Source: Bacteriovoracaceae bacterium (GTDB lineage: Bacteria; Bdellovibrionota; Bacteriovoracia; Bacteriovoracales; Bacteriovoracaceae). From it: a DNA stretch of 64,000 nucleotides. A program made the position numbers and the translations under genes. Under the pieces are notes generated by a model. It saw only the letters and a program-made list of their open reading frames with translations, did no database searches and had not been told where the DNA came from. The stretch is from the NCBI GenBank assembly GCA_019752535.1, contig JAIEMA010000034.1, forward strand, positions 1 through 64,000. The letters are read 5' to 3'. Below, piece after piece: positions 52,274 to 61,409 of the stretch (the first letter of the stretch is position 1; every line of letters starts with the position of its first letter).

Positions 52274-52873
52274 ATGTTGACTAAATTGTTTGTGGGATTG
52301 ACCTTCTTTGAAGACAATCACTTCGCCAAAAAAATTCAGAATTTCCGTGGGCGCTATGATGAGAAAGTGCTGACCAATCCTACGGTTTTTATGCCGATCG
52401 TGGCGCCATTTGAAATTCCTGTCACATCCTTAGAGAGCCTTGAGACTGAAATCGTTGAAGAGATGGAAGCCTTTTTTCCAGACGAAAACGAAAGTCTTAC
52501 GATGGGGTTCACTGGGCTTGATGTGCTCACTCATTCTAAAAAATCTCTGCTCTATCTCCATCCCAACGAGATGACGGATCTTGAACATTGCGCTGAAGCC
52601 CTGGCCCAAATTTGCCGTGAACATGTAGAGCTTCGCGAACACCGCCCCAACATGAAAGATAAAAGCTTTCTCACGATTGGAAGATTTCAAGATCCCACTG
52701 CTCTACATGGCGCACTTGCTGTGGCCCAAAGAGAGTTTATGGATTGCACTGCACTTCCTGTCAAAGGCGTGTGTTTGTTCAGAAAACACAATGGTGTTTG
52801 GTTTCAGCAAGTTGATTTGCATCGCTTCGATCAAGTTGATGAATCTCAAATGTATCGTCCAGGAAGCGCATGA
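52274..52873 (+). CDS. 2H-phosphoesterase-like (LigT/2'-5' RNA ligase fold) protein, His motifs lost
   Basis: A 199-residue protein. NPTVFMPIVAPFEIPVTSLE and DKSFLTIGRFQDPTALHGAL stand where 2H enzymes carry their two H-x-[TS]-h motifs (HVTLAPF and HLTLGRF). In both, the His is replaced (Phe-Met/Phe), so catalysis by the classical mechanism is unlikely. A binding role is possible. The next gene starts in its stop (ATGA), which implies co-translation with an outer-membrane-type protein. Confidence 0.55.
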   Translation: MLTKLFVGLTFFEDNHFAKKIQNFRGRYDEKVLTNPTVFMPIVAPFEIPVTSLESLETEIVEEMEAFFPDENESLTMGFTGLDVLTHSKKSLLYLHPNEMTDLEHCAEALAQICREHVELREHRPNMKDKSFLTIGRFQDPTALHGALAVAQREFMDCTALPVKGVCLFRKHNGVWFQQVDLHRFDQVDESQMYRPGSA

Positions 52874-54060
52874 GAGTTTTTTTTCTCCTCTGCCTTTTTT
52901 CTTTCAGCGCCCTAGCGCAAACGAGTTATGTGCCGCTTGGGCGAATTCTAAAAAAAGGTGGTTATGAGATTAAAGGGACTGGCCGCTCATGGGCCTCCAC
53001 TTCGCGCTATGATGTAGATAGCACTGAAGTTCCTTTTAAAACGGGTGAAGGCTTTTCTTATTTTGAGGGAGAGCTTCAAGGTTTGTATGGAGCGACGAAA
53101 GAATTGCAGATGGGTCTAAGTGCAAATTTTCGCCAAAATAGATCGACCTTTGAAAATCCTGTCGGCTCAGGCACCAATGATTCTATCACTGCCACTGGCA
53201 TTCAAGCTGTAGGTGGTGCTCTTAGTTATGCCTTTGCACCGGTGGGGCGACTCAATTATACGCTTGAAGGTTTTTATCGCTATCATCCTTATACCAACAC
53301 TGCTTACGACTCAACTGATCCCAAAAAAGGTTTTGTCTTAGGAGATGATGGAACTGAATACGGAGCGGGATTAGTTCTCACTTACGCGCATCCAAATCAG
53401 AATTTTTTAAGTTTTAATATTCAGTATCGAAAGCCGGGATCAGAGTTGAGTCCCGAAATCAATTGGCAGACAGAAGGCGCGCTGGCTTGGAAATATTTGG
53501 CCCTTGTGGCCGGCGCTCAAGGAGTCATGTCGCTTAATAAAGATGCCTACACGGATGATCCTCAAAATAAACCAGCAATCAATACTGGCGGATCATCAAT
53601 TTATAATTCAATCAATCGTCAGTACCTCGCTCCCTATGTGGGAATGAACATTGCTCTGGGGCAAAAGTGGAGAGTTGAGGGGAGATATCAGACGGTCACG
53701 AATGTCCGATCATATGACACTGGCTCTCTCATTACATTGGCGCTGGCCACAAGAGTAGAGACGAATTCTACAGTCAGAGAGCTGGATGATAAATTTAAAG
53801 AATACTCGGTCGATGCGACTGTCGTAAAACTCTCTCCTAAAAAACAATTCATTATCATTGATAAGGGTCTCTCTAGTGACATTCAAGTGGGCCGTCGTTT
53901 TGATCTGTTCTTGTTTGATTACTTAGGTGGAAATGTGCTCCTGGGGCGTGCAGTGGCGATTCAAGTCAATGCCGATCAATCAGTACTAAAGATCACCACT
54001 CGATTCACCACTAAGCATGAAGTCAAAGAGGGAACGATCGCCAGAGGGCTTGCGGATTAG
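52870..54060 (+). CDS. exported beta-strand-rich, probably outer-membrane protein
   Basis: A 396-residue protein with signal peptide MRVFFLLCLFSFSALA. Most of the chain shows alternating amphipathic strands ending in aromatics (LEGFYRYHPYT, FLSFNIQYRKPG, WRVEGRYQTVTNVRSY), as in beta-barrels. The last 90 residues (FKEYSVDATVVKLSPKKQFI, VGRRFDLFLFDY, VLLGRAVAIQVNADQSVLKI) look like a separate small beta domain that may lie in the periplasm. The family is not recognised. It overlaps the previous gene by 4 bp. Confidence 0.65.
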   Translation: MRVFFLLCLFSFSALAQTSYVPLGRILKKGGYEIKGTGRSWASTSRYDVDSTEVPFKTGEGFSYFEGELQGLYGATKELQMGLSANFRQNRSTFENPVGSGTNDSITATGIQAVGGALSYAFAPVGRLNYTLEGFYRYHPYTNTAYDSTDPKKGFVLGDDGTEYGAGLVLTYAHPNQNFLSFNIQYRKPGSELSPEINWQTEGALAWKYLALVAGAQGVMSLNKDAYTDDPQNKPAINTGGSSIYNSINRQYLAPYVGMNIALGQKWRVEGRYQTVTNVRSYDTGSLITLALATRVETNSTVRELDDKFKEYSVDATVVKLSPKKQFIIIDKGLSSDIQVGRRFDLFLFDYLGGNVLLGRAVAIQVNADQSVLKITTRFTTKHEVKEGTIARGLAD

Positions 54061-54164: not shown

Positions 54165-54884
54165 ATGAAACGCTATTTTCTTTTTGCTCTCGTTTTTGCT
54201 CTCTCATCAAATGTTTGGGCTAAACGTTTCTCAAATCAATACTGTGAATTTGAGCTTCCTTCAGGTTGGCAGTGTGCTCTCGAGGGATCAGAGTATGTGT
54301 GCCAATCAGAAAATGAGTCGAGTAAAAAAGAAGCGATCATTATCTTGGCCGCCAAGCGAAGAGGTGAGCAAGATAGTATGGAGGAATACACGGCGTATTT
54401 AAAAAAGCCTAAAACGTATTCTCTTCCAGGCGGAAAAGTTCAAGTTTCAGAGGCAAAATACACAAAATTAAGTGATGTGAATTCTCATCAGTGGATTGAT
54501 TCGCTTCATCTTGCATCTGAAGTTCCTGGTTTCTACACGCGATATCTTGCCACTGTGAAAGAAGATCTTGGTGTCGCTGTCACATTCTCGGTCGCAAAAG
54601 ATTTGTATCAGCAGTACCAGGGAATTTTTGATGGGGTTGTGGCTTCTCTTCGCGTCTTCCGCCAAAAGAGTGATACTGGCACTAATCTTAATCTTGCGGC
54701 TAACGATGCGAACCTTGCGGATACAACGTTCGTCCCAGATGGCGACAAGGTTGATATCTCAGTTCAAAAGACTCAAGAGCGCAAAACCGATGATGGCGGT
54801 GGCGATATGATGCTCTATGCAGGTATCGGAATTGCGGCCCTCGTGCTCTTTATCCTCAAGAAAAAAGGCGGAAAGAAGGGGTAA
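54165..54884 (+). CDS. exported, C-terminally membrane-anchored protein, function unknown
   Basis: A 239-residue protein. The signal peptide is MKRYFLFALVFALSSNVWA. The mature start, FSNQYCEFELPSGWQCALEG, contains three Cys near each other and resembles small domains that begin CxFxLPxGW. A disordered stretch (about 170-215) precedes a C-terminal membrane helix (MLYAGIGIAALVLFIL) and a Lys/Gly tail (KKKGGKKG). That layout resembles sorting tails such as GlyGly/rhombosortase-type anchors, but no canonical motif is present. Confidence 0.65.
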   Translation: MKRYFLFALVFALSSNVWAKRFSNQYCEFELPSGWQCALEGSEYVCQSENESSKKEAIIILAAKRRGEQDSMEEYTAYLKKPKTYSLPGGKVQVSEAKYTKLSDVNSHQWIDSLHLASEVPGFYTRYLATVKEDLGVAVTFSVAKDLYQQYQGIFDGVVASLRVFRQKSDTGTNLNLAANDANLADTTFVPDGDKVDISVQKTQERKTDDGGGDMMLYAGIGIAALVLFILKKKGGKKG

Positions 54885-55058: not shown

Positions 55059-57080
55059 ATGAAGTTTTTAAAGCAGCTCACTCTCTTAACGATATTGGTG
55101 GTTTTTTCTTCCAATAGTTTTGCATGCAAAAATGCAAATGGGGATGAAACAACAAATGAAGATGAGTGTGTTCCAGAGCCAACTGAAGAAGGTGATGAGG
55201 AGGAAGCTCAAGGTTCTGTTACATTTAGCATTGAAGAAAAAAAACAACAGGCTCAATTAGTTAATGCTGATTCAGTTGAGCCAGTTTTGAATTGCTTAGA
55301 TAATCTTCAGACATCAATAAAGAGTTCTACTGCGAAAACATGTGATACCCAAGCTAATGGACATTTATGCTATAAGGGAAAACTCACTCCTAAGGGGGGC
55401 CTGAGTGGAAAGCCAGTAGATATTACTGTCTACAAGTTAGATGTCCCAGAAGTTAATTTTGAAACGATCAGGTCATGTAAAACAATTTTTGGGACAAATT
55501 ACAGTCAGGGTAAGTTAAAAGAAGAGGACATAACAGTTCAACATTACTATGGCATCATTGCAAATCAGGCTTCTCACTGTGGACCAGATTTGGCAAAGGC
55601 TTATGAAGCAACTCTAAGATATAATAAGTGCAAAGAGGGAGAGAGAAAGACCCCATCTACACCATGTGCACTTCCCCAGCCTCAGAAATTAATTAATTCT
55701 AGTGAAGACGCACAAAATGAGTATAACGATTGTGTTGGTAAGTATGCTTCAGATCCACGTAGTAACCAAATTTCAGAGCGCACGGTTGTAGGCTTACAAA
55801 AATGTGTTGCGATAAATGTGGCAGAATTCTCAACTGAAACTAATTTTAAAGCCGCTGAAGCGATGGGGAGTGGTCCAATTAAATGTGAAGAACATAATGG
55901 ATCTGCTCTAGATTATAATTCTTGTAAGGAGTTTTTGACTTGGTATATGGGAATGATGGGAGCAGAAACTGGGGCTAACCTTGTTAATGAAGCTGTTAAA
56001 GTAAATGACAATATGAAGACCCAAGCACAGGTCAGTGAGCAGCTCTCTAAAGGTAATGGTCAAAATGCTGCAATAGAAGCAGCAAGGAAAGCTCAGCTTA
56101 CTGCAGCAGATGCTGAGAAAAGAAAGGCTATGATTTATTCAACTAAAGCAGCTGCAATGACAGTAGAGCTCGCTCGTTTTGTCACGCTTGGTAATATAGA
56201 TAATAAGTGTTCAGGGGAAAATAAAGCATGCTGTAAGTCTTTGCAGAAAGATTTTAAAACGGCAGGTAAGTTTTTTCCAAACTCAAAATTAAAAACGTTA
56301 ATCATGCAGGAAATGATCAAAGCCGGTGGTGAAGCAGCTAAGGCTCTACTCGCAGCAAAGATGTATAAAGATCAAGCCAACATGATCAAAAATATTGAAA
56401 ACAACATGCGTCCTCAAGAAGATGAATCACAACAAGGACTAATGGCTTACTGTGTGAAGAACCCACAAGACACTCGCTGCCAAACTCCTGGAATGCGCCA
56501 ATCGCTTCAAGGGATGAATTTAACCGGTGCAGGTTATGGTGGAACAAACTTCGGCATGAACGATGCTGGTGCGGCCAATGAAGTGGATTTAAATGCAGAA
56601 AATGGTGCTGCTGGTGCCATCGCTTCAAACAAAAAGAGCGTTGGCGATATTGGTACTTTAAATAAAGATGCAGCAGCGGCTAAAGATATCTTTAATGCTC
56701 CAGCCGCTGTCCAGGGCGGAACGGGTGCTCCGGCCACAGCTGGCTCTGGTGGTGGAGGCGCGGGTGTTAATGCCTCTGGTAACGCCTTGTCAAAAGATCC
56801 AGGTCTGCAAGAAGAGAAAAAAGATAATCCAATTAATATCACGAAGAAGACTGCAAGTTATGAGGGTGGAGCCTACAGCGGTGGAACTTACAAAGGCTCA
56901 TCTCAGAAAAAAGCTGAAGATGGATCAAGTAACCCATTTGCCTCGATGTTTGGAAAAGATAAAGGCCGCGAGACCGCTTCAACTCCAGAGATCGATCAAC
57001 CAGCTTCTGATCTCTTTACAAAAATTTCTAATCGCTACGGCGAGGTCCAGAAGCGCAAAGCGCTGATGGATGTTCGTTGA
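55059..57080 (+). CDS. large exported Cys-containing protein with C-terminal SNRY motif
   Basis: A 673-residue protein. The signal peptide MKFLKQLTLLTILVVFSSNSFAC may be a lipobox variant (S-F-A-C). An acidic stretch (NEDECVPEPTEEGDEEEA) is followed by a Cys-rich domain of about 250 residues, a helical Ala-rich region (AAIEAARKAQLTAADAEKRK, AKALLAAKMYKDQANMIKNI), a Gly/Ala/Asn-rich low-complexity region (about 460-600) and the C-terminal SDLFTKISNRYGEVQKRKAL (SNRY from residue 657). No known family. The C-terminal motif recurs in the protein at 59097-61409. A TTG start of a thioesterase overlaps its stop. Confidence 0.75.
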   Translation: MKFLKQLTLLTILVVFSSNSFACKNANGDETTNEDECVPEPTEEGDEEEAQGSVTFSIEEKKQQAQLVNADSVEPVLNCLDNLQTSIKSSTAKTCDTQANGHLCYKGKLTPKGGLSGKPVDITVYKLDVPEVNFETIRSCKTIFGTNYSQGKLKEEDITVQHYYGIIANQASHCGPDLAKAYEATLRYNKCKEGERKTPSTPCALPQPQKLINSSEDAQNEYNDCVGKYASDPRSNQISERTVVGLQKCVAINVAEFSTETNFKAAEAMGSGPIKCEEHNGSALDYNSCKEFLTWYMGMMGAETGANLVNEAVKVNDNMKTQAQVSEQLSKGNGQNAAIEAARKAQLTAADAEKRKAMIYSTKAAAMTVELARFVTLGNIDNKCSGENKACCKSLQKDFKTAGKFFPNSKLKTLIMQEMIKAGGEAAKALLAAKMYKDQANMIKNIENNMRPQEDESQQGLMAYCVKNPQDTRCQTPGMRQSLQGMNLTGAGYGGTNFGMNDAGAANEVDLNAENGAAGAIASNKKSVGDIGTLNKDAAAAKDIFNAPAAVQGGTGAPATAGSGGGGAGVNASGNALSKDPGLQEEKKDNPINITKKTASYEGGAYSGGTYKGSSQKKAEDGSSNPFASMFGKDKGRETASTPEIDQPASDLFTKISNRYGEVQKRKALMDVR

Positions 57081-57490
57081 TTAAACCGCCATTTGAATAC
57101 CGAGTCCAGGTGAAGGAATTTCACCTGGATACTTTCGGTCACGTGAACAATGCCATGTATCTCACTCTCTACGAAGAAGCCCGTTGGGACTTTATCACTC
57201 AAAATGGTTTCGGCTTGGAGCGAATTCAATCTGATCAATCAGGACCAGTTCTCCTGGAGACAACGGTTAAGTTTAAGCGTGAACTTATTAATCGAGAATT
57301 CATTACCATCGTCTCAACGCCGGGTGAGTTGAATGGCAAGCTTATGGTGATTAATCAGCAAATGATTAAAGAGAATGGCAAAGTGGCTTCAGAGGCAAGC
57401 TTTACAGTGGGTTTTATGGATATGAAAGAGAGAAAGCTTGTGAGTCCGCCCAATGATTGGCTTGAGGCCTGTGGATATAACCAGAAATAA
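57077..57490 (+). CDS. hotdog-fold acyl-CoA thioesterase (YbgC/4HBT-like)
   Basis: A 137-residue single-domain hotdog protein. The catalytic segment is EFHLDTFGHVNNAMYLTLYE (Asp18, His22), and ETTVKFKRELINREFITIVS forms the long strand pair. It probably hydrolyses acyl-CoA or acyl-ACP. The start is the TTG at 57077, overlapping the preceding stop as TTGA; translation is probably coupled. A bidirectional terminator follows directly after the stop. Confidence 0.85.
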   Translation: MIKPPFEYRVQVKEFHLDTFGHVNNAMYLTLYEEARWDFITQNGFGLERIQSDQSGPVLLETTVKFKRELINREFITIVSTPGELNGKLMVINQQMIKENGKVASEASFTVGFMDMKERKLVSPPNDWLEACGYNQK

Positions 57491-57514
57491 AAAAGGCCCC
57501 TTTCGGGGCCTTTT
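57491..57514. terminator. bidirectional terminator
   Basis: AAAAGGCCCC/GGGGCCTTTT (10 bp) around TTTC, with A- and T-runs either side, between converging genes. Confidence 0.92.
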
Positions 57515-57517
57515 CTT

Positions 57518-58831
57518 TTAGTAGCGATTGTCGTAGCAGATATCGTTCTCGTAATCATAGTCATAACAATCTTGTGAGTTATCACCATTGTCATAACCGC
57601 CGTCGTTGTATCCACCATTGTTGTCTGGATAGTTCGTCGGAGCTGGTTGCTGTTGATTATCAGGAATCCCATCATTGTTATAGTCTTGGTACTGGTAATC
57701 ATAAGTCGGACGAGAGAAATCCCAAGATTGATCACGGAAAGTCTCAGAACAAGTGTAGCGATAGTTGTACTCACGCTCGTTCATGTTATCGCGCTCGTAT
57801 GAACACTGATCATAACCGTAGTTACAAGTTTGGTTCCAGTAGTTACGAACCACTTGTTGAGTGTAGGTATCAACGAGTTGGTAGTTACACTGATCTTGGT
57901 TGCTGTAACGGTAACGGTAACCGTTGTAAACATAGTACGGGTAGTTGTTAAAGACGTAGTAGCCATTGTTGTAACCAACTGTCGGCCAGTAAATCCAGTT
58001 TAAATAAACATAATTTGGGAATGAGTTACGTACGTACGAGTAGTAATCAAACGAGCGGTAGTAGCGAACAGGTCCAACATAGATTGAAGTCCATGGAGTC
58101 TGGTGGTAGCGCGAGTATGGAATCGGACGATACATCGGTGGGCGATGATAGTTTGGTGTTCCATAGTTTGTGCGAACTGGAATTCTGTAAACTGGACGGT
58201 ATGTCGTCGGACGTGGAGGAACGTAAACTGGACGGTCTGGACGATTAGGATTGTAGCGTGGGCCTACTGGTCCAGTTGGTCCTGGTCTATAGCCGCCATT
58301 GCCTGGATTTGGGTTGTAACGTGGTCCTGGAGTTGGAGCTGGATTATAGCCGCCATTGCCTGGATTTGGGTTGTAACGTGGTCCTGGAGTTGGAGCTGGA
58401 TTATAGCCGCCGTTTCCTGGATTTGGGTTGTAACGTGGTCCTGGAGTAGGAGCTGGATTATAGCCGCCATTGCCTGGATTTGGGTTGTAACGTGGCCCTG
58501 GAGTAGGAGCTGGATTATAGCCGCCGTTTCCTGGATTTGGGTTATAGCGTGGTCCTGGAGTGGGAGCTGGATTGTAGCCGCCGTTTCCTGGATTTGGGTT
58601 GTAGCGTGGTCCTGGAGTAGGTCCTGGTCTTGTGTCTGGACGAGTTGAACCGCCAGAAGAGCCGCCGCCTGGGTTTGGATTATAACGTGGCCCGCGTGGA
58701 GCATCGCTGCCGCCGCTGCTAGAGCCGCCACCTTGACCCGGACGTCCGCGACGTGGGTCTTGAGCATTCGTCACATCCATCATCGAGATCGTGATGAGAG
58801 CCGTGAAAAGAATCTTAATCGATAAGTTCAT
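57518..58831 (-). CDS. secreted Pro/Gly/Tyr-rich repeat protein
   Basis: A 437-residue exported protein. After the signal peptide (MNLSIKILFTALITISMMDVTNA) comes a Gly/Ser/Pro region and six near-perfect 19-residue repeats (YNPNPGNGGYNPAPTPGPR). The second half is extremely rich in Tyr and Asn (YNNGYYVFNNYPYYVYNGYR) with a few Cys, and the end is acidic (DYDYENDICYDNRY). No family is recognised. Composition suggests a flexible surface or adhesive protein. The ATG at 58831 has GGGAGA just upstream; the longer reading from 58852 has no better site. Confidence 0.75.
   Translation of the reverse strand: MNLSIKILFTALITISMMDVTNAQDPRRGRPGQGGGSSSGGSDAPRGPRYNPNPGGGSSGGSTRPDTRPGPTPGPRYNPNPGNGGYNPAPTPGPRYNPNPGNGGYNPAPTPGPRYNPNPGNGGYNPAPTPGPRYNPNPGNGGYNPAPTPGPRYNPNPGNGGYNPAPTPGPRYNPNPGNGGYRPGPTGPVGPRYNPNRPDRPVYVPPRPTTYRPVYRIPVRTNYGTPNYHRPPMYRPIPYSRYHQTPWTSIYVGPVRYYRSFDYYSYVRNSFPNYVYLNWIYWPTVGYNNGYYVFNNYPYYVYNGYRYRYSNQDQCNYQLVDTYTQQVVRNYWNQTCNYGYDQCSYERDNMNEREYNYRYTCSETFRDQSWDFSRPTYDYQYQDYNNDGIPDNQQQPAPTNYPDNNGGYNDGGYDNGDNSQDCYDYDYENDICYDNRY
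58288..58629 (-). repeat. about six tandem 57-bp coding repeats
   Basis: The unit encodes YNPNPGNGGYNPAPTPGPR. Copies differ mainly at third positions (for example GTTGGA/GTAGGA and CATTGCC/CGTTTCC on the plus strand), so the amino-acid repeat is kept while the DNA drifts slightly. Boundaries are approximate. Confidence 0.9.
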
Positions 58832-59063
58832 GCATTCTCCCTTTAGACACAAAAGAAATGAAACAATTGCGTTTTCATTTGTTCTAGCAAGAGGATTCGC
58901 TCTCTGTGAATGAGATTCTGCTTACATGCGTCATAAGCAATTCTCTAGAGGGATTTAAGGTGTGAGATTTATTGAAGTTTTAGAAGCTGAGATTATTTAA
59001 CTGCTTGGAATTCTTTCACTTTCAAAAGGCAAAAGTGACAAAATGCACCTGTGATTTGGAGTC

Positions 59064-59090
59064 AAAAAGGCCCCAGTGAAGGGGCCTTTT
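59064..59090 (-). terminator. terminator of the large exported protein gene (59097-61409)
   Basis: AAAAGGCCCC/GGGGCCTTTT (10 bp) around AGTGAA lies 7 bp past the stop of the leftward gene, with an A-run on the plus strand giving the U-tract. Confidence 0.9.
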
Positions 59091-59096
59091 CTAAGT

Positions 59097-61409
59097 TTAT
59101 TGTGAGATCTGAGTTTCACTCGGTTTATCGGCCGGCACAATCGCTTCACCACCAAAGAGTCGTCTCATACCACTTCGCTGATATCTGTTTGAGAGAATCT
59201 GGAAGATGTTGGCCCCTGAGTCTGAATTAATTTCACCTGCCGACATGTCGTATTCACTACCCATGACTTCAGCGAGTTTTTCATCTTCAATCGTCACGCC
59301 TCCCTCACCAAGGGAGTCGAGATTAAAGTCATTGCCGCCATTTTTACTTTTTCCACCATCTGCTACAGGCACAACGTTTCCGTCGATGGATTTGATTTCT
59401 TGTTTGAGCTCCTCTTTCATTTTTTCAAGACTAGGAGATCCGGTAGAGCTTCCAGAACCAAAGCCCGATCCTGATCCAAAAGAAGCATTTGCTAAAGCAG
59501 GGTTAGAGGCAAGGCTGCTCGCCATTTTTGCCATAAGTTTTTTTCCGTCAGCATCAGCTTTTGCGAGAATCTTTGCTGCGCTTGGATTTTTTTTCAGCAA
59601 AGCATCTTGGAATTTTTTTGCTCTTGCTCCTAAACCATTAATTTGATCCATATTAATATCCGAAGGCGATATAGAGCCATTTGCAATTCCATTCAATGTC
59701 CCTGGTAAATTGCCCATCAACCCTGCCGGAACAGAACCCGATTGAACGTTTGGAGTAACTGTTAAGCAAGATTTTGATCTCACACAACTACAACTAGGGT
59801 CAGAGTTTCCATTCTTGCTAATACATGTTTTTGAACTAGTAGTTTTTGTTCCTGAATTATTTTTTGTTGAAGCGAGATTGGGATTTCCTCCAAAGAATGC
59901 TTTACAGGTTGCAGAACTTGCCCGAGTAGGATTCAAGGTTCCAGCCTCAGTGTAACAGTAACAATTTGGTTTTGAAGTGTTAGACGTTCGATCGGAGCCT
60001 GTACACCCAAAGGTTTGGCCAGATGCCAAGACTTGACTCTGTAAATTTTCAATAAATTCCTTTCTGTCTTCTGCTTTTTTAATTTGTTTGCTGATGTGAG
60101 AGATCATAAAAGCATCATTGGCCAGAAAAATTCCTGCCAAAACAGCACGAGTATATGGAGACATCATCATTTGTTTAAGTGTTAACCCTTGCATTGGGAT
60201 AAGAGCGATACCTGCAGCACCTACAACACCAAGGATTAAACTGATTCCCCCACCTGAACCAGCATGGGCATTTTTAACCATAAACTGTTCAGCAATTTTT
60301 TCAGCAACAGAGGCGATCGAAATCATTTCATTATCAAGCTCAAGATCATTCTCTTTAATAATTTTCTTCAATGCTATGTAAGCATCTAAGTCTGGCGAAA
60401 TGTTTTTTCCTTCTTGGATTGAGCGACTTTCAAGATTATAGATAGCAAGGTCAGCTGTCGATGTCGCGACTGAATTGAAAATGCTGTTGATTTGTGAATA
60501 GGCGGAATACGATATACGTTGTTTTTTTAGGAAATAATTATCAACAAATTGTGCGGCATTTTGCTCTTCGCGATTTGCATAGTATTTGTAAGGTGATGAT
60601 CCGGGTTGAGTGGCATCTGCAGCAGACGAAGTACACATATATTGAATTGTTAAAGCACCACAAGTACCAGGACACACCAGTTGAGCGTTATAACCAATAA
60701 TCTCAACGAGGGCTAATGCAAGACCAACTGTGTGAGCAACTGCTGCAACGATATAGAGTGTTTTTTTGGTTTTACCAGCTGAGATTGTAGCATCTTCACG
60801 CTTAAGGAGCGCATTGAAAGAAGCAGATTGGGTGTCAGTCGCCGTTTTGTTGTCGGAGCTGTTCGCTTTGGAACTGTCGTTCTCTTTTTTTAATTCCTCT
60901 TCAGCATCTTTCATTTTACTTTTGTAAGTCATTGCTGAAAGTACTTCGCCAGCAATAACAGAGACAGACCCCAAAATGAAACTCCACTTTGAATACGCCA
61001 TTAAGCAATCGGCAGAACTGCCGATCATTTGGAATCCAGCCCAAACACCTGCCATTGCTAAAATAATACTAACAATATTGGGATCAACTTTTTGATGCGC
61101 ATAAATTGTTCCATCAGCTTCAGCATCTTTGACTCGTGCTTCTAGGGCTTTGTTTAAACAGTCTTTCTGCGCTTGTTGTGTTCCAAGAGTCATACACTGC
61201 TTATTGGCTTCTTGAACTTTTGCGGCTTCTTCTGTGGTGAGGCATCGACCCAACATTTCATTCCACTGAAGCCCAGTCTCACAACTTCCGGCCCAAGCGT
61301 TTGTTGATATAGAGATGTTGGAAACAAACGACATGTTGGGTACAGAAGAGGCGATCAGTTGGATCCCCAGGATGTAAGTGAGAAGGGTGGCAAAAATTCT
61401 CTTAAACAT
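59097..61409 (-). CDS. large membrane/exported protein with C-terminal SNRY motif
   Basis: A 770-residue protein with an N-terminal signal-like segment (FATLLTYILGIQLIASSVPN). Hydrophobic segments include IVSIILAMAGVWAGFQMIGS, FILGSVSVIAGEVLSAM, LYIVAAVAHTVGLALALVEI, ISLILGVVGAAGIALIPMQG and AVLAGIFLANDAFMISH. A Cys-rich region (about 455-540, with FGCTGSD, NCYCYTEAG, SCSCVRSKSC) and a Gly/Ser/Lys-rich region follow, then GANIFQILSNRYQRSGMRRL (SNRY from residue 740). GAGG five bases before the ATG supports this start. No family is recognised. Confidence 0.75.
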   Translation of the reverse strand: MFKRIFATLLTYILGIQLIASSVPNMSFVSNISISTNAWAGSCETGLQWNEMLGRCLTTEEAAKVQEANKQCMTLGTQQAQKDCLNKALEARVKDAEADGTIYAHQKVDPNIVSIILAMAGVWAGFQMIGSSADCLMAYSKWSFILGSVSVIAGEVLSAMTYKSKMKDAEEELKKENDSSKANSSDNKTATDTQSASFNALLKREDATISAGKTKKTLYIVAAVAHTVGLALALVEIIGYNAQLVCPGTCGALTIQYMCTSSAADATQPGSSPYKYYANREEQNAAQFVDNYFLKKQRISYSAYSQINSIFNSVATSTADLAIYNLESRSIQEGKNISPDLDAYIALKKIIKENDLELDNEMISIASVAEKIAEQFMVKNAHAGSGGGISLILGVVGAAGIALIPMQGLTLKQMMMSPYTRAVLAGIFLANDAFMISHISKQIKKAEDRKEFIENLQSQVLASGQTFGCTGSDRTSNTSKPNCYCYTEAGTLNPTRASSATCKAFFGGNPNLASTKNNSGTKTTSSKTCISKNGNSDPSCSCVRSKSCLTVTPNVQSGSVPAGLMGNLPGTLNGIANGSISPSDINMDQINGLGARAKKFQDALLKKNPSAAKILAKADADGKKLMAKMASSLASNPALANASFGSGSGFGSGSSTGSPSLEKMKEELKQEIKSIDGNVVPVADGGKSKNGGNDFNLDSLGEGGVTIEDEKLAEVMGSEYDMSAGEINSDSGANIFQILSNRYQRSGMRRLFGGEAIVPADKPSETQISQ

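Follow-up and report, generated by a model that had tools for sequence, protein, structure and literature searches.

Tags at the C-termini of exported proteins have repeatedly exposed whole protein-sorting systems, as was the case for the sortases, the exosortases, the Type IX secretion system (T9SS) and myxosortase. The C-terminal domain of T9SS substrates is a beta domain of roughly 80 residues, while the substrates of Type I secretion systems (T1SS) have no N-terminal signal peptide. Tags of the CTERM type are tripartite, being made up of a signature motif, a transmembrane helix and a basic cluster (PMC11980579). The analysis described here concerns what appears, from comparisons of sequence, to be a lineage-specific C-terminal tag absent from the family libraries and from the literature searched. 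A lineage-wide tag lacking any membrane anchor would, in an order noted for preying on other bacteria, mark hundreds of uncharacterised envelope proteins as belonging together functionally.

In the window (the whole stretch of 64,000 nucleotides that was analysed, from a Bacteriovoracaceae bacterium), a sequence-only reading had singled out two large exported proteins, here called A and B, as lying on opposite strands on either side of a thioesterase and a Pro/Tyr-rich secreted protein. This arrangement is as described: the two genes are convergent, and a 4HBT thioesterase and the Pro/Tyr-rich protein lie between them. The latter (57518-58852, minus strand) contains tandem repeats, each some 19 residues long (PGPRYNPNPGNGGYNPAPT). 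It is also correct that A and B each combine a signal-peptide-like start, Cys-containing parts and a Gly/Ser/Asn-rich linker ahead of the tail.

Protein A (673 aa; 55059..57080, plus strand), an open reading frame with tail-bearing homologues in relatives, runs from a signal peptide through a variable Cys-containing N-terminal part and a helical core to a Gly-rich linker and the C-terminal tail. The core (residues ~273-450; 55875..56408, plus strand) is the best-modelled part, with pLDDT of ~60-86, and its conserved cysteines include invariant Cys columns, with invariant Asp columns besides, in an alignment of relatives (15 sequences). The Gly/Asn-rich linker (residues 476-649; 56484..57005, plus strand) is predicted to be disordered, pLDDT being mostly below 50, and leads into the tail, SDLFTKISNRYGEVQKRKALMDV (residues 650-672; 57006..57074, plus strand), which was found by pattern and by profile and for which a helix is predicted over residues 651-672. 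The protein ends in SDLFTKISNRYGEVQKRKALMDVR; as first quoted, this end was missing its last four residues. A second conserved short element, NPFxxMF (residues 625-631; 56931-56951, plus strand), lies in the linker about 21 residues ahead of the A-family tail, its N625, P626 and F627 being invariant in the alignment.

Protein B (770 aa; 59097..61409, minus strand), likewise an open reading frame with homologues in relatives, with which it was aligned, consists of a signal peptide, a Cys pair, helices with hydrophobic segments, a Cys-rich region, a linker and the tail. A long hairpin of predicted helices (residues 139-241; 60687..60995, minus strand) contains two hydrophobic segments, with hydropathy peaks at 143-161 and 220-238. 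The Cys-rich region (residues 469-548; 59766..60005, minus strand) is homologous to a third tail protein, C, discussed below; in the alignment C529, C540, C542 and C548 are invariant, while C469, C483, C485 and C502 are at least 90% conserved. Following a linker with pLDDT below 50 throughout (residues 636-733; 59211..59504, minus strand), the tail NIFQILSNRYQRSGMRRLF (residues 734-752; 59154..59210, minus strand) has a predicted helix at 735-752, and stops 18 residues short of the end, near which the sequence reads GANIFQILSNRYQRSGMRRLFGGEAIVPADKPSETQISQ. The eight codons of the F..x..RY core of the motif are at 57015-57038 (plus strand) in A and 59181-59204 (minus strand) in B.

Comparison of A with B by BLASTP revealed no similarity, and neither protein has any meaningful match in Pfam or NCBIfam, nor, in a Pfam scan, the YkuD catalytic domain (PF13645). 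When A, B and four further tail proteins were scanned against NCBIfam, no family came up at E<=0.1. Searching PDB sequences gave nothing useful, the weak matches of A to antibody linkers being an effect of its Gly-rich sequence, and a Foldseek search of the PDB with the model of B, which is too poor for the purpose, gave nothing at E<=0.001. The close relatives that bear names are from Bacteriovoracaceae, Bacteriovorax and Halobacteriovorax(aceae), which places the window in this predatory lineage.

The motif F-x-x-[IL]-S-N-R-Y proposed at the outset does exist, but it is too narrow to describe the family, for which the consensus is [IL][FW]xx[ILV][ST]xRY; in many cases xxS[GA]xx[RK]LF comes next. 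Sought as a bare DNA pattern in its own genome the motif shows no excess (53 matches, against 67 for a reversed control), so that the evidence for the tail lies in a conserved profile and not in a regular expression. The profile was built from 30 tails, and since those of A, B and C were among them, the profile E-values of these proteins themselves (3.6e-9 for the tail of A and 1.3e-12 for that of B) are circular. A held-out test, with profiles trained on the tails of one family and the database size set to 3500, is free of this circularity. A profile trained only on the A family, using tails of other genera, gave E=0.011 for the B of this genome and recovered 13/46 members of the B family at E<0.01; its best reversed decoy scored E=2.8. 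In the opposite direction, a B-trained profile found 8/34 A-family and all 12 C-family members at E<0.01; its score against the A of this genome was not significant (E=34). In neither direction did a reversed decoy reach E=1. As judged by these profiles, then, the similarity of the A and B tails holds at the level of families, not by this one pair, and it is on that footing that the shared C-terminal motif first noticed on A and B, both of whose reading frames and motifs are present, can be upheld.

The tail is also the best-conserved segment of these proteins, at a mean pairwise identity of ~50-66% as compared with ~16-30% over the greater part of A and B. The individual figures are 50% for the A family (16-27% in most of the rest), 66% for the B family (18-30% for most of the protein) and 59% for the C family (24-46% elsewhere). 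Among 175 aligned tails the Arg is present in 171 and the Tyr in 174, and a pair so nearly invariant suggests, at least at the level of sequence, specific recognition.

As to distribution, 17 of 30 relatives proved to have a homologue of B, and 8 of the 30 one of A that carries the same tail; the complete A and B homologues listed end in some version of the tail, though most of the protein is only ~20% identical. The window's own genome contains, by profile, three strong tail proteins, namely A, B and C (the last on contig 3, L085_8, with the tail GIFDLISNRYRRSAWSRF), together with one weak one (L135_2, 1424 aa). FKTVTESY, a further candidate in a small exported protein (L003), was not returned by the profile. 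More broadly, at E<=0.01 the profile matches 1-15 proteins per genome in 112 of the 116 Bacteriovoracales genomes sampled, so that the search proposed by the sequence-only reading, for further exported proteins sharing the tail, comes out positive. Where position was examined the tail was terminal: 172 of 172 tails scoring at least 14 bits in the fetched proteins are no more than 45 residues away from the C-terminus, and in six tail-rich genomes the same is true of every tail ORF found. Two of the tail proteins are of ~2035 aa and contain 130 cysteines each (L209_1, L209:961-7062; L237_2, L237:926-7036). Outside the order there are weak matches (E ~1e-4, one or two per genome, in three other families), again C-terminal, on exported Cys-containing proteins and often in tandem; in one such genome (G177) three neighbouring proteins, encoded in a cluster near flagellar genes, end in NIW.KIQNRYQV or similar. 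In Bdellovibrio bacteriovorus, where FlgF is Bd0530 (PMC12546842), weaker tails probably occur too.

Export is indicated by the N-termini. By a crude test, based on a hydrophobic N-terminal stretch, 163/181 tail proteins have a signal-peptide-like start, against 178/452 other ORFs of at least 300 aa at the same loci, a comparison that is not a random sample since the loci were fetched for their tails. One genus has B divided between two neighbouring ORFs (L070, L149, L152, L154, L156, L158 and L159), and most of the tail-bearing halves start with a signal peptide of their own, e.g. MNKILILLFFLFSHTSFAVDP (in L156 the called start is short), from which it follows that the tail acts outside the cytoplasm. 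The two AlphaFold models are of low confidence (mean pLDDT 52.8 and 46.1), and both show a core made of helices, then a disordered linker, then a tail helix standing by itself, so the tail may be described as a predicted helix. It is polar-amphipathic, the tail peptides having mean Eisenberg hydrophobicities of -0.22 to -0.31 and the helix a hydrophobic moment that is only modest. In neither A nor B is the motif followed by a hydrophobic segment, and the tail contains no transmembrane segment, no cysteine and no C-terminal arginine or basic cluster.

The reading that we prefer, to which we would give about an even chance of being correct, is that the tail is a C-terminal docking helix which, carried on a flexible linker, brings diverse envelope proteins to a single common partner. 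Each cell would produce several large proteins, exported across the inner membrane, whose main domains differ, being helical, Cys-rich, or sometimes probably inserted in the membrane or equipped with an L,D-transpeptidase domain; each would end in a disordered linker of ~100-190 residues and then an amphipathic helix of ~18 residues with its almost invariant Arg-Tyr. Outside the cytoplasm, and presumably in the periplasm, the linker would serve as a tether and the helix would bind a single partner sitting at the outer membrane, at the cell wall or in an envelope machine, with the result that the tail proteins would be gathered in one place. The sequence-only reading, which had spoken of a docking or sorting signal, is supported in part: a conserved tail after a flexible linker does fit docking, although sequence does not settle the choice between docking and secretion or surface sorting, and no processing or secretion protein was established that goes along with the tail.

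That alternative, under which the tail would be a sorting or secretion signal read after Sec export by an outer-membrane export or surface-attachment system, and perhaps cleaved, we regard as unlikely, although it survives better than the others considered here. Sec-type N-termini combined with a conserved extreme C-terminus, on many proteins of one lineage, are the classic profile of a tag, and the L,D-transpeptidases of predators act on the wall of the prey (PMC12546842). Set against this are the lack in the tail of an anchor, a cysteine or a basic end, as noted above, the failure of any NCBIfam sorting-tag model to match, the fact that no processing enzyme was found, and the presence of the same tail on types that are probably integral to the membrane. 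The last point rests on the hydrophobic segments of the B-superfamily types, of which the A types have almost none; these segments are weak in many relatives of B (21/46 have none above the cut-off), making membrane anchoring of B uncertain. It is nevertheless the occurrence of one tail on both soluble A and probable membrane B types that leads us to prefer docking to an outer-membrane export signal.

A different kind of explanation would dispense with a separate partner altogether. If all the tail proteins had descended from one ancestor, the tail might simply be the portion that has changed most slowly, doing structural work within each protein. Profile-profile comparison (hhalign) of the cores, the tails having first been trimmed off, places the B, C, D, E and G types in one superfamily, so that these at least are demonstrably homologous, and keeps the A types separate. 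Between the A and B cores only a weak helical-hairpin signal was seen (probability 72%, E=3e-5, 92 columns), and not the full-length homology that would reduce the shared motif to simple paralogy; to go by this signal, a greatly diverged hairpin may be common to A and B, and with it descent of the whole architecture from one source. The cores of the Bdellovibrio and f8 types, however, match the B types in little but the tail, which thus spans at least two superfamilies between which kinship is not demonstrated. Given also that a long disordered linker parts the tail, modelled as an isolated helix, from a core that is less well conserved than the tail itself, we consider ancient paralogy improbable as the explanation. 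Still less probable is binding of the tails to one another, through a helical bundle, to give a mixed complex, in spite of genomes having several kinds of tail protein, with genes that often adjoin, and of A and B being neighbours in many genera, as the hydrophobic moment is modest, there is no obvious heptad pattern, and those genomes with a single detectable tail protein would need homomers.

If the tail is a docking helix, the gene pair upstream of A offers two candidates for its partner, both weak. F18 (52870..54060, plus strand) is an exported, outer-membrane-barrel-like protein from a family in which PF13557 weakly matches one member of seven (E=0.004), and F19 (54165..54884, plus strand) is likewise exported, with a transmembrane segment at its C-terminus and a basic end; the pair adjoins tail genes in many genera. 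F19 is a conserved uncharacterised protein, with 53-81% identity across the aligned sequences and no significant Pfam or NCBIfam family, but it is matched, mostly in one copy, in 271 of the 291 genomes sampled from the phylum, tail-poor genomes included, and its presence is therefore uninformative. The absence of F18 goes with few tails, F18 being lacking in 8/13 tail-poor as against 4/84 other genomes (Fisher p=3.6e-6), although this p-value is uncorrected for phylogeny, the association rests on about four lineages, and genomes without F18 tend to be small. In several tail-poor lineages F18 drops out of an otherwise conserved enolase-F17-F18-F19 locus (L250-L256); F17 is followed by F19, with F18 cleanly absent, in G035, G043, G056, G082, G087 and G102, and the locus of G007 also has no F18. 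On the other side, one tail-rich genus lacks F18 as well, five tails are present in G009 despite its absence, and tail-like ends, e.g. SQIFSTISARYQKSSYRLE, are retained in several of the tail-poor genomes. M15 VanY-like and C92 neighbours were considered as well, and are not constant beside tail genes. A more specific form of the docking reading, possible though on the whole doubtful, is a Bdellovibrionota-specific envelope targeting system in which a dedicated receptor, perhaps F18 or F19, would capture the Arg-Tyr helix on each of the 1-15 exported proteins that a cell makes, and would assemble or deliver them, cell-wall enzymes included, at the surface of the predator. The tail peptide would provide a direct handle for fishing out the common partner.

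It remains to compare the tail with the systems mentioned at the start. As regards enzymes, the L,D-transpeptidases Bd0886 and Bd1176 serve in Bdellovibrio predation (PMC12546842); three distant A relatives (L121_4, L121:5931-8279; L133_4, L133:3719-6178; L208_2, L208:977-3394) join an N-terminal YkuD_2 L,D-transpeptidase domain to the tail, which A and B of the window do not, and in the literature searched the tail is not described for the Bdellovibrio enzymes. Like the signals of Type IX secretion, the tail is a conserved C-terminal element on Sec-exported multidomain proteins, but at ~18 residues and predicted to be helical it is not a T9SS domain, and no Por-type secretion domain was matched by NCBIfam or Pfam at the C-terminus of A or B. 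Nor is it a T1SS signal: these too are C-terminal recognition elements, but most tail proteins (163/181) have the N-terminal signal-peptide-like stretch that T1SS substrates do without. Close parallels are, too, MYXO-CTERM with its myxosortase (Myxococcota; PMC11980579), PEP-CTERM, GlyGly-CTERM and LPXTG, which likewise place a short conserved C-terminal element on many Sec-exported proteins and likewise occur within one lineage at several to dozens per genome. Lacking a transmembrane segment, a cysteine and a basic cluster at its end, the tail is not a CTERM or sortase tag; where CTERM tags have a membrane helix, it would instead present a soluble amphipathic helix with an Arg-Tyr pair and, often, an acidic end.
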